Shown here one piece after another: positions 33,457 to 36,347 of a DNA stretch of 64,000 bases. This DNA comes from Limimaricola sp. G21655-S1 (GTDB taxonomy: Bacteria; Pseudomonadota; Alphaproteobacteria; Rhodobacterales; Rhodobacteraceae). The notes beneath the pieces were generated by a model. That model was given only the letters and a program-made list of their open reading frames with translations. It did no database searches and had not been told where the DNA came from. Location: NCBI RefSeq assembly GCF_027213785.1, contig NZ_JAPWGO010000010.1, forward strand, positions 1 to 64,000, in the 5' to 3' direction. Both the position numbers and the translations under genes were made by a program. Each line of letters begins with the position of its first letter. Position 1 is the first letter of the stretch.

Positions 33457-34173
33457 ATGAAGGTCGAGGAACAAGGTACACGGGGTGAAGGCAACCAGCT
33501 GCTGGCCCGGATGCCCGCAGCGCTTGCCGACCTCATGTTCGCCCATCTCGAACCCGTCAGCCTGCCGCAGGGGCTCGTGATCGAGCAGCCCAACGAACCG
33601 GTCGAGCACATCTATTTCCCGACGGGCGGCGTCATCTCCATCGTGGCGATGAACGGCGAGGGCAACGCCCAGATCGAGGCGGGGCTGGTTGGCCGCGAGG
33701 GCATGTCGGGCACCATGGTGGTGATGGGCACCGACCGGTCGCCGCATCAGACCACGGTGCAGATCGCCGGGACCGGCTACCGGCTCGAAGCGGACCGGCT
33801 GCGCGACGCGCTCGAGCAGGAGCCGCTGCGCGAGCGGCTGCTGCATTACTGCCATACGCTGTCGGTGCAGACCGCGCATACCGCGCTGGCCAACGCCAAG
33901 CTCAAGCTCGATGCCAGGCTCGCGCGCTGGTTGCTGATGTGTCACGACCGGATCGACGGGGACGAGGTGATGCTGACGCATGATTTCCTGTCGATCATGC
34001 TCGGCGTGCGCCGCGCCGGCGTCACCGTGTCGCTGCACATTCTCGAAGGGCAGGGGCTGGTGCGTGCCACGCGCGGGCAGATCCGCATCCTGAACCGTCG
34101 TGGGCTCGAAGAGATGGTCGGCGGCTGCTACGGCGCGCCCGAGGCGGAATACGCGAGACTGATGCGCGACTGA
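33457..34173 (+). CDS. Crp/Fnr-family transcriptional regulator
   Basis: A 238-aa protein with an N-terminal cyclic-nucleotide-binding-like barrel (about 20-140) and a C-terminal HTH_Crp domain (about 150-225; LTHDFLSIMLGVRRAGVTVS). The N-terminus has no Cys cluster for [4Fe-4S], so it is not a classical FNR. The effector is unknown. A GAGAAGG site precedes the ATG. The 170 bases between tRNA-Arg and this gene contain a short AT-rich patch (around 33345-33358) that could be its promoter. Confidence 0.88.
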   Translation: MKVEEQGTRGEGNQLLARMPAALADLMFAHLEPVSLPQGLVIEQPNEPVEHIYFPTGGVISIVAMNGEGNAQIEAGLVGREGMSGTMVVMGTDRSPHQTTVQIAGTGYRLEADRLRDALEQEPLRERLLHYCHTLSVQTAHTALANAKLKLDARLARWLLMCHDRIDGDEVMLTHDFLSIMLGVRRAGVTVSLHILEGQGLVRATRGQIRILNRRGLEEMVGGCYGAPEAEYARLMRD

Positions 34174-34200: not shown

Positions 34201-34905
34201 TCACTGCATCCGGATCACCGATTTGTCGATCGCCAGCACGTAGCCGCGCTTGGCGATGTTCTTCACCAGAAGCTCGCTCACCAGCTGGTTGCCCAGCGTG
34301 TCGCGCAGCCGCTTGATCCGCGTGGCTCCGGCGGCCTCGTCGCAATCGGCGGCGGAGCGGCCCGAGATCACCGCCTCGATCTCCGAACCCGAGAGCACCT
34401 CGTCATCCATCCGCGCCTCGGCCAGCACCGATAGCGTCTCGATCGCCGCCGGTGTCAGCTTGAACTCGAAATCGTTGAGATGCACCGCGTTCTGGTCGCG
34501 GCTGATGACGAGGCTGTTCACCTCGATGCCCTTGCGCTCGATCCGGCCCATGCGGCGGTTGAGCTGGATCAGCATCAGCAGGAACGCCACTGCCGCCACC
34601 AGCATCGCCATCGCGAAGGTCAGCAGCACGAAGATCACGAAGCGGTAGCTCGACAGCACCTCCGAAAAGGCGGTGCCCGACTGCGCGAGGATCTCCAGGA
34701 GCTTGATCTCGGCCTGCGCGGTCAGGTCGTCATTCTCGACGAAGAGCCGTTCGACCCGGGCGTTAAAGGCGTTGGCGTCGGGCAGGTTTACGAAGAGCAG
34801 GATCGCCGCGCCGATCAGCAACAGTGCGATCGCCGCGAGTCCCGCGGTGACGATCTTGTTGCCTGCTTGTCGCGCCTCAGTAGCGGAGGAAGTAATCGCC
34901 TGCAC
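34201..34905 (-). CDS. Membrane protein with C-terminal winged-helix DNA-binding domain
   Basis: A 234-aa protein with two membrane segments (about 18-40 and 88-114), an outside loop of about 47 residues between them (AFNARVERLFVEN), and a cytoplasmic C-terminal domain (about 136-226). That domain reads like an OmpR/PhoB winged helix: FEFKLTPAAIETLSVLAEA for the first part, then TRIKRLRDTLGNQLVSELLV and KRGYVLAI as the recognition helix and wing. ToxR/CadC proteins have these parts in the opposite order. It starts inside the last 29 bases of the secreted-protein gene, so the two are coupled. Confidence 0.75.
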   Translation of the reverse strand: MQAITSSATEARQAGNKIVTAGLAAIALLLIGAAILLFVNLPDANAFNARVERLFVENDDLTAQAEIKLLEILAQSGTAFSEVLSSYRFVIFVLLTFAMAMLVAAVAFLLMLIQLNRRMGRIERKGIEVNSLVISRDQNAVHLNDFEFKLTPAAIETLSVLAEARMDDEVLSGSEIEAVISGRSAADCDEAAGATRIKRLRDTLGNQLVSELLVKNIAKRGYVLAIDKSVIRMQ

Positions 34906-35161
34906 TGTCCCGCCTTTTCTCCAGACCCTCGTCGCCGAACAGGCTCACGATGGCAAGGAGCTTCCAACCATCCGAGCCGAGCCGCGGGCGCAGTTCGTCC
35001 GCGGCGGCGTCGGGTTGGTCGCATGGCGAGGAGATTTCGGCAACGCCGTAATGCAGCCTGAGCGGATCGTCGCGCTTGGCCTTGTAATCGGCGTAACAGG
35101 CCGCCTGCGCCGATGCGGCGCCGACGACGATGAACGAGAGGGTGAGGGCGAGGGTTTTCAT
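34877..35161 (-). CDS. Small secreted protein coupled to the membrane regulator
   Basis: A 94-aa protein with a signal peptide (MKTLALTLSFIVVGAASAQA, cut near residue 20-21). The mature part has two Cys (C22 and C47), so a single periplasmic disulfide is possible. It opens ACYADYKAKRDDPLRLHYGV. I recall similar unnamed proteins in rhodobacters but no function. Its 3' end overlaps the start of the winged-helix membrane gene by 29 bases, which suggests a joint role, for example as a periplasmic partner. Confidence 0.75.
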   Translation of the reverse strand: MKTLALTLSFIVVGAASAQAACYADYKAKRDDPLRLHYGVAEISSPCDQPDAAADELRPRLGSDGWKLLAIVSLFGDEGLEKRRDSAGDYFLRY

Positions 35162-35342
35162 GGGCTTCACCATGCGGCGCGGCCCGGCGCTATTCAATAA
35201 CGCGCCCCGCGGGACGCCGCGTTATTGCCTGACGGAGCAATCGGGCCAACTTTGCCTCACAAGACCTGCCTCCCCCCGGCCCCGCACGATCGGCCGGCAG
35301 CAGGGTATTCGCTCCGCCGGGAGCCGCATGACGGAGACCGAC

Positions 35343-36347
35343 ATGGCACGACGCCTCATCGCCGCAACGCTTTCGCTATCGCTCGGGCTGTCCGGCCTCG
35401 CCCCCGCGCCGGTCATGGCGCAGGACGACAATGCGAGCATGGGCCGGCTGATCGGCGGGCTGGTGGCGCTCGGCGTGATCGGTGCCGCCGCCAAGCAGCA
35501 GCGCGACAAGGACAAGGAGCGCGCCGAGAAAAAGGCCAAGGCCGCCGAGAAGGAGGCCAAGGAGAAGCGCAAGGAGGCCCGCAAGGCCGCGAAGGAAGAG
35601 CGCAAGGAAGCCGAGAAGCGCCTGAAGCGCGAGCTGGAGCGCCGCGAAGAGGAAGAAGAGCGCGAAAGCGAGTCCGATGCCCGCACCCGCGCGGCGCTGG
35701 GCGCCCTGAGCGCGATCATCGCCGGGCAGGGCGCCGGCACCGGGATCGAGGCGATCGCGCGCGAGTTCGGGCTCGACCTGAGCGATCCGCAGGCCGAGGC
35801 CCGGGCCCAAGCCGAGGCGCAGGCCCGCGCCGAGGCAGCCGCGCGCGAGGAGGCCTTGGCGGCCGAACGCGAGCGCGCCGAAACCGAAGCCCGCCGCGCC
35901 GAGATCGTGCGCCAGGCCGAGGAGGCCCGGTTGGCCGAGATCGCCCGCGCCGCCGAAGAGCGGCGCCGCGCCGAGGCACACGCCCGGCTCGAAGCGCAAG
36001 GAAGCCCGGTGGCCCCGGCACCCGAGGCGCTGCCGCCGATACCGCGCGACGAGGTGACCCCGGATCTCCTGCGCGACTGGAAGCCGGCCACGACCTCTGC
36101 GCAGACCCTGCCCGAGACGACCACCCCGGTCGCCACGGGAGAGATTCCCTTCGCCTGCCTGCGCCGGCAGCAGAGCGGCTTCGAATCCGCCTCCCTGGTC
36201 GATGGCGACTGCCTCGACGATTACCCGGTGCTGGCCCGCAGTTTCCCGCTCGATTGCGCCGTGACCGGCCGCGAGGAGGGCCGGATCACCTCCGGCTACG
36301 ATACGCAGTGCCTGCGCGATCGCGGCTACAGAATTGCCGTCCGGTAA
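35343..36347 (+). CDS. Secreted Lys/Glu/Arg-rich coiled-coil protein
   Basis: A 334-aa protein with a signal peptide (about 1-27, ending PVMAQ). A hydrophobic stretch (LIGGLVALGVIGAAAK, about 37-52) is followed by a highly charged K/E/R helix (about 53-115), an A/I-rich patch, then an Ala/Glu/Arg helix (about 145-230), a Pro-rich part, and a C-terminal domain with four Cys (ACLRRQ, GDCLDDYP, LDCAVTG, QCLRDRGY), likely disulfide-bonded. Start at 35343 has ACGGAG six bases upstream. Function unknown. Confidence 0.75.
   Translation: MARRLIAATLSLSLGLSGLAPAPVMAQDDNASMGRLIGGLVALGVIGAAAKQQRDKDKERAEKKAKAAEKEAKEKRKEARKAAKEERKEAEKRLKRELERREEEEERESESDARTRAALGALSAIIAGQGAGTGIEAIAREFGLDLSDPQAEARAQAEAQARAEAAAREEALAAERERAETEARRAEIVRQAEEARLAEIARAAEERRRAEAHARLEAQGSPVAPAPEALPPIPRDEVTPDLLRDWKPATTSAQTLPETTTPVATGEIPFACLRRQQSGFESASLVDGDCLDDYPVLARSFPLDCAVTGREEGRITSGYDTQCLRDRGYRIAVR

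Follow-up and report, generated by a model that had tools for sequence, protein, structure and literature searches.

Membrane-bound regulators of the ToxR/CadC type consist of an N-terminal OmpR-type winged helix, a single membrane helix and a C-terminal periplasmic domain, and several of them work in pairs, such as ToxR-ToxS, TcpP-TcpH, VtrA-VtrC and PsaE-PsaF. A broader class, the transmembrane transcription regulators (TTRs), comprises proteins that join a DNA-binding domain to one or more membrane segments in a single chain. According to the excerpts available of a survey of this class, TTRs with two segments make up 17% of it and some TTRs have co-components (PMC10269533). In Rhodobacter sphaeroides, the envelope regulator CenR recognises the motif TGA-N8-TGA, and its sites are associated with repression when they overlap the promoter and with activation when they lie upstream, as given in excerpts of PMC9275681. 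The protein described here, REG, belongs to the broad TTR class, since a DNA-binding domain and transmembrane segments are predicted to be joined in one protein; the excerpted main text of PMC10269533 holds no description of its family in Rhodobacterales. In the open-licence literature, searches by domain order, by gene neighbourhood and for Rhodobacterales envelope regulators returned no recognised description of REG.

Similar to the ToxR/CadC type, REG carries an OmpR-type winged helix, is predicted to be held in the inner membrane with a periplasmic part, and a small candidate partner gene, SEC, adjoins and co-occurs with it, as in the paired members. Unlike that type, its membrane part comes first, with two membrane segments and an outside loop of just 47 residues, and its winged helix (residues 128-228) comes last, so that REG lacks the order and topology that define the ToxR/CadC family. 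SEC also differs from the known partners in being exported, in having two invariant cysteines and in lacking a membrane helix beyond the signal peptide, and the predicted DNA site of REG is a palindrome, GTTAT-N3-ATAAC. With OmpR/PhoB response regulators, including CenR as excerpted, REG shares the DNA-binding fold and predicted envelope targets, among them an L,D-transpeptidase; it differs from them in being membrane-bound without a receiver domain and in a predicted site that is not TGA-N8-TGA.

Both genes, labelled hypothetical protein in two annotated records, lie in the window (the whole 64,000-nucleotide stretch of DNA that was analysed), at the coordinates already given for them in a preliminary description of this DNA:

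34201..34905, minus strand: REG, membrane-anchored OmpR-type winged-helix regulator of 234 aa, GTG start
34786..34854, minus strand: TM1 of REG, residues 18-40 (hydropathy; long helix 7-40 in the model)
34645..34785, minus strand: periplasmic loop of REG, residues 41-87, predicted helical
34564..34644, minus strand: TM2 of REG, residues 88-114, with a basic linker after it
34222..34524, minus strand: winged helix of REG, residues 128-228 (Trans_reg_C matches and fold matches)
34291..34338, minus strand: recognition helix of REG, residues 190-205, EAAGATRIKRLRDTLG, mean identity 0.93
34877..35161, minus strand: SEC, small secreted protein of 94 aa, ATG start, signal peptide read from sequence
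34877..34905, minus strand: overlap of the SEC stop and the REG start, 29 nt

Hydropathy places the hydrophobic segments of REG at about residues 18-40 and 88-114. The net charge is +1 before TM1, -5 in the loop and +4 after TM2, where a basic stretch (LNRRMGRIERKG) follows the second segment, hence both ends of the protein are predicted to be cytoplasmic. These predictions agree with the preliminary description, which had read two membrane segments and a 47-residue outside loop from the sequence and had placed an OmpR/PhoB winged helix at the C-terminus. The latter assignment is confirmed by both profile and structure comparisons. Pfam Trans_reg_C matches residues 148-224 of the window's REG with an E-value of 1.7e-4 and 22 bits, just missing the cut-off of 26.2, and at E up to 0.1 it is found in every one of the 48 aligned homologues, the best E being 2.9e-6. 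The AlphaFold model (mean pLDDT 76.9, pTM 0.46) matches OmpR-family DNA-binding domains, including those of RpaA, CadC (5ju7), ToxR (8b4b) and ArlR, with a Foldseek probability of 1.00, and VIA gives Z scores of 9.7-11.8 over about residues 129-229 among the 50 matches listed; within the winged helix, pLDDT is 85-87 for residues 151-200 and just 58-64 for the wing (201-220). Against solved structures, a sequence search with REG returned nothing useful (one RstA match, E 0.79) and a profile search returned no match. Neither the Pfam matches of the window's REG (E up to 1) nor the list of 24 families matched by its homologues includes a receiver domain.

Of the REG regions compared, none is more conserved than the recognition helix; mean identity is 0.83 for the periplasmic loop and 0.64 for TM1. 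The outside loop, itself conserved, is the likely sensing surface of the protein. The sole cysteine of REG, residue 188 (window 34342-34344), immediately precedes the recognition helix, and 47 of the 48 aligned homologues retain it; a redox role for it is possible.

REG and SEC were found in the same 51 genomes out of 101 (the window's genome and its relatives), and these 51 all belong to the window's family (51 of 61 genomes inside, none of 40 outside). REG was matched in five of 385 genomes of a class-wide sample, all five in that family, and in 179 of 196 genomes of an order-wide sample of Rhodobacterales, with one match each among the matches listed. Among named relatives, Limimaricola is the nearest. 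The SEC profile had no match in 26 REG-lacking genomes, in a search run without a positive control; a separate search, which found SEC in 51 genomes, found it absent from ten of these 26. The REG gene had been noted to start inside the last 29 bases of the SEC gene, and an overlap of exactly this length, measured at the aligned REG start, recurs in 117 of 124 loci (several of these 124, and of the 123 upstream regions considered below, are the same contigs counted twice and hence not all independent). Because of this overlap and of the presence of REG in most of the order-wide sample, the arrangement is not attributed to chance. The gene pair is conserved across Rhodobacterales, and the neighbourhood largely keeps the two genes together; the exceptions are two of the 51 genomes with REG (G047 and G048), in which SEC and REG lie on different contigs, and one (G043) with a spacer between them. 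All three retain the operator at SEC.

On the divergent side of the pair, rnhB and ccrM are both present in 39 of 51 loci, a count that includes two SEC-only fragments and one locus in which SEC was unmatched. In Parasedimentitalea, a ccrM-rnhB-hypothetical-SEC-REG block is located on the plasmids pQS-2 (L061) and pW43D (L062), which are 92-111 kb long and typed as non-mobilizable; in these cases, therefore, plasmids carry the genes for a CcrM-like methyltransferase and RNase HII. In the window, the divergent gene (35340-36347, plus strand) encodes an exported, Ala/Arg/Glu-rich coiled-coil protein that matches no Pfam family (E up to 0.001), with long matches in the window's genus only and short ones in two other loci. 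A Crp/FNR-like regulator (33457-34173, plus strand), whose cyclic-nucleotide domain is below the Pfam cut-off, is convergent with REG and adjoins it in the loci of the window's genus and in one other (L068). For the alignments, L108, which is near-identical to the window, was left out of A1 and A2, L089 (aberrant SEC end) out of A2 and A4, and the two plasmid loci out of A3 and A4.

SEC had been described as a secreted protein of 94 aa with two cysteines. This reading holds, and both cysteines (C22 and C47) are invariant in 47 of 47 homologues, in an alignment without the aberrant SEC of L089 and one near-duplicate. In L089 (10277-10561), the C-terminal part of SEC is swapped for a Gly/Asn/Ser-rich tail and REG is intact. 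The model of SEC shows a beta-beta-alpha-beta-alpha order with a core pLDDT of about 97. Foldseek returns no match for it at E up to 0.001, and VIA gives Z of at most 5.9, which may reflect a common arrangement only; the missing structural match is no evidence for a new fold. A sequence search of solved structures with SEC gave nothing useful, and NCBIfam Sp36 matches five of the 47 homologues with a best E of 1.1e-4, too weak to use. A presumed resemblance of SEC to DUF4177 was rejected, since the 13 Pfam families to which the 47 homologues have matches (E up to 1) do not include it and the window's genome has no match to it either.

The conserved footprint upstream of SEC across loci is the palindrome GTTAT-N3-ATAAC. 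At 7 or more of its 10 positions, it is matched 334 times in 123 SEC upstream regions, against 57 times in Markov shuffles, and every one of the 123 regions has at least one such match. Many loci hold three sites, of which site 1 is half-degenerate; the distance from site 1 to site 2 is 21 bp in 84 of 102 loci, and site 3 follows a further 32-33 bp downstream in 90 of 103 (loci not dereplicated in either count). The window holds two copies, 32 bp apart:

35189..35201, minus strand: operator site 3, GTTATTGAATAGC, which holds the -35 TTGAAT
35221..35233, minus strand: second operator copy, GTCAGGCAATAAC, half-degenerate, 32 bp from site 3
35169..35174, minus strand: putative -10 hexamer CATGGT, 17 nt after the -35 (position logo and sequence)

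Dereplication of the 114 loci that have both a match to site 3 and sufficient DNA upstream left 96 sequences, in which site 3 is nearly invariant (G-W-TATTGAATA-N-C) and a CANNNT -10 sits 17 nt after its TTGAAT. The central TTG is present in 111 of 112 sites 3 and in just 6 of 103 sites 2, hence it is best read as a -35 element inside the operator. In 85 of 123 loci, site 3 begins 39 or 40 nt before the SEC ATG. The gap between the putative -10 and this ATG, 7 nt in the window, suggests a leaderless mRNA. Furthermore, Shine-Dalgarno-like tetramers upstream of SEC are about as frequent as in shuffled sequence (34 of 123 compared with 26), so the SEC transcript is likely to be leaderless. The logo of the footprint is not the CenR direct repeat, which places the operator outside the CenR regulon.

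The window's genome has 46 matches to a looser pattern on both strands, against 14 for the reversed pattern. Regions around sites of a stricter pattern (GHTATYSVATADC) were taken from 13 and then 7 genomes with REG, giving 91 loci, including the earlier ones, that were grouped by their flanking genes. Ten groups cover at least two genera. The site precedes a DUF5333 exported protein in nine genera, a glycine-zipper OmpA-type lipoprotein in six and, in three, a small lipoprotein whose gene is divergent from hemF. Further exported targets are LolA (G056 and G610), the pair L280/L383 and, in two genera, a protein with a peptidoglycan-binding domain (L262 and L273); a third locus of the latter group, L352, has the flanking gene in common with them and not the target. 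Other groups are less uniform: L265/L275 is mixed, L288/L378 has no clear exported target, and L282 (G045) lacks the L,D-transpeptidase promoter of its group. One site in the window's genus is flanked by divergent genes for an L,D-transpeptidase (YkuD) and a DUF882 protein. A simple heuristic scored the ORF as exported-looking at 30 of 41 TTG-orientation sites with an ORF 20-170 nt downstream, compared with 21 of 52 for other orientations and 64 of 442 for random positions in the same loci, the three genomes of the window's genus being near-replicates in these counts. Of the 91 site loci, 43 were seen once only, and some of these are probably due to chance.

The motif is co-inherited with REG, and its main recurrent targets are exported. 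Genome-wide on both strands, the 179 genomes with REG have a mean of 9.5 matches, none of them zero (reversed-pattern control 1.5), while the 17 genomes lacking REG have a mean of 2.0, eight of them zero (control 1.0). The difference has a Mann-Whitney p of 4.9e-9 (196 genomes), with the reservations that relatedness inflates the p values, that ten of the 17 REG-lacking genomes are of one genus (g24) and that the counts for genomes with REG include SEC's own sites, which are by definition absent from the others. A promoter test was made on 30 genomes not used for finding the target groups, with a site threshold of 8.5/10 (about 1.3% chance expectation) and without the second matches L323, L324 and L347. 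At DUF5333, a site was found in 14 of 15 genomes with REG and in none of the seven REG-lacking genomes (of 15) in which the gene was found (Fisher 4.7e-5); the former figure may be inflated because these 15 genomes were hand-picked after the match counts were known and are site-rich, with at least six forward matches each. At the OmpA-type lipoprotein, the figures are 8 of 15 and 1 of 13 (gene found in 13 of 15; Fisher 0.016), so that 7 of the 15 promoters in genomes with REG have no site at this threshold. In 13 genomes with REG that were chosen before the counts, a strict site is present at DUF5333 in nine and at the OmpA-type lipoprotein in seven. In the two genomes with a relocated REG, G047 and G048, the sites remain at SEC and none is found upstream of REG.

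Two REG-lacking genomes are exceptions, G499 with four matches and G511 with seven, and in neither does a TTG-orientation match precede an exported ORF. One match in these exceptions (L388) lies before a cytochrome-like exported protein and another (L394) before a gene like the target of L379. In G511, both promoters of the test are below threshold, and its three other sampled congeners have REG. The site group L372/L379 was rejected as a target, since in G511 a like site precedes a like gene; the GATATCGGATATC site precedes genes of similar N-terminus with REG (L379) and without it (L394), and in L372, L379 and L394 it is probably that of another regulator.

REG is probably a ToxR-like one-component regulator of reversed domain order, in control of a small set of envelope genes and of its own operon. 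A two-helix hairpin would keep it in the inner membrane, with its winged helix facing the cytoplasm, and REG would bind GTTAT-N3-ATAAC palindromes directly from the membrane and thereby control the SEC-REG operon and the genes for the DUF5333 exported protein, the glycine-zipper OmpA-type lipoprotein and the small lipoprotein next to hemF; in fewer genera, control would extend to LolA and to peptidoglycan-binding or cross-linking proteins. REG would mostly act by blocking the -35, until an envelope signal at the conserved periplasmic loop brings about its release. SEC, which is more heavily marked than any other target, would be exported and would then report on or damp the response at the loop. 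CpxP and ToxS act this way on their partners. By analogy with them, such a role of SEC is a fair way short of established but worth entertaining, and we infer that SEC may be the periplasmic partner of REG on the grounds that the two genes co-occur and that the sites stay at SEC after unlinking.

The reading that competes most closely with a feedback role is that SEC is a co-transcribed effector of the regulon, makes no contact with REG and is paired with it by the operon only; we give this reading slightly less than an even chance. The retention of the operator at SEC when the genes are unlinked fits such an effector, and so does the divergence of SEC, which follows that of the winged helix no less closely than that of the loop: a mirror-tree analysis gives no specific SEC-loop signal, the partial correlation of SEC with the REG loop being 0.11, a value reached by 37 of 500 permutations, and that of SEC with the winged helix given the loop 0.27. 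Of the preliminary interpretation, the ToxR-like parts in reverse order and the conserved gene pair are retained, and the proposed role of SEC as a periplasmic sensor paired with REG gains no specific signal from this analysis. Against a mere operon pairing stand the occurrence of both genes in the same 51 genomes, the absence of any SEC match from the 26 REG-lacking ones, the fixed overlap and the keeping of both genes even where they are unlinked.

As to the sign of control, repression is favoured because the site overlies the -35 at the main promoters and the TTG is kept, and we lean towards REG being mostly a repressor, with an activating or dual role carrying the smaller share of our confidence. 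ToxR, CadC and PhoB, its relatives, are activators. An activator REG, bound over the -35, would recruit RNA polymerase through its alpha2-alpha3 loop, and the upstream copies would add cooperativity; spaced at 21 and 32-33 bp, these copies share one face of the helix, and in the window's genus the site is well upstream of two divergent cell-wall genes and not over a -35 TTG. This model is tentative, since the nearly constant TTG inside site 3 indicates that sigma itself seems to read this DNA, and since, in the excerpts of PMC9275681, repression is associated with those CenR sites that overlap promoter elements.

It is unlikely that REG is instead cut in or at the membrane on a signal and releases a soluble winged helix. 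TcpP and ToxR are known to undergo regulated proteolysis, and the two-segment anchor of REG with its short linker to the winged helix would suit such a mechanism, but no protease was recognised among the recurrent neighbours, of which not all clusters are identified, and no cleavage site is readable from the REG sequence.

The Zur box is also GTTAT...ATAAC-like, and palindromes are typical of other families, OmpR-family factors often binding direct repeats according to excerpts of published work. It is nevertheless improbable that the palindrome upstream of SEC-REG belongs to another regulator, such as a Zur/Fur-type protein or CenR, and that REG does something else: the REG-lacking G511 has as many matches as many genomes with REG, but both test promoters are below threshold there, genomes without REG lose the promoter sites and, on average, the motif load, the identified targets include no zinc genes, and CenR reads TGA-N8-TGA (PMC9275681, as excerpted).

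Taken as a whole, the repressor reading with SEC as a feedback partner would describe an envelope stress response of Rhodobacterales' own, in which a reversed ToxR-like membrane repressor acts on the -35 of a leaderless autoregulated operon and on envelope genes (the OmpA-type lipoprotein, DUF5333 and, in some genera, LolA and wall proteins) and receives feedback from an exported disulfide protein dedicated to it, in place of or beside systems of the Cpx, Rcs or sigma-E type. We regard this complete scheme as speculative. The open-licence literature searched holds little on envelope monitoring in roseobacters and their relatives apart from CenKR, and nothing was found there on DUF5333 or on the palindrome string GTTATTGAATAAC.

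Roseobacters and their relatives are abundant. REG and SEC are inherited together in a large, mostly marine bacterial family, and both a DNA site and a regulon have now been predicted for a widespread "hypothetical protein". If the proposed mechanism is true, ToxR-like signalling can work with its parts in reverse order.
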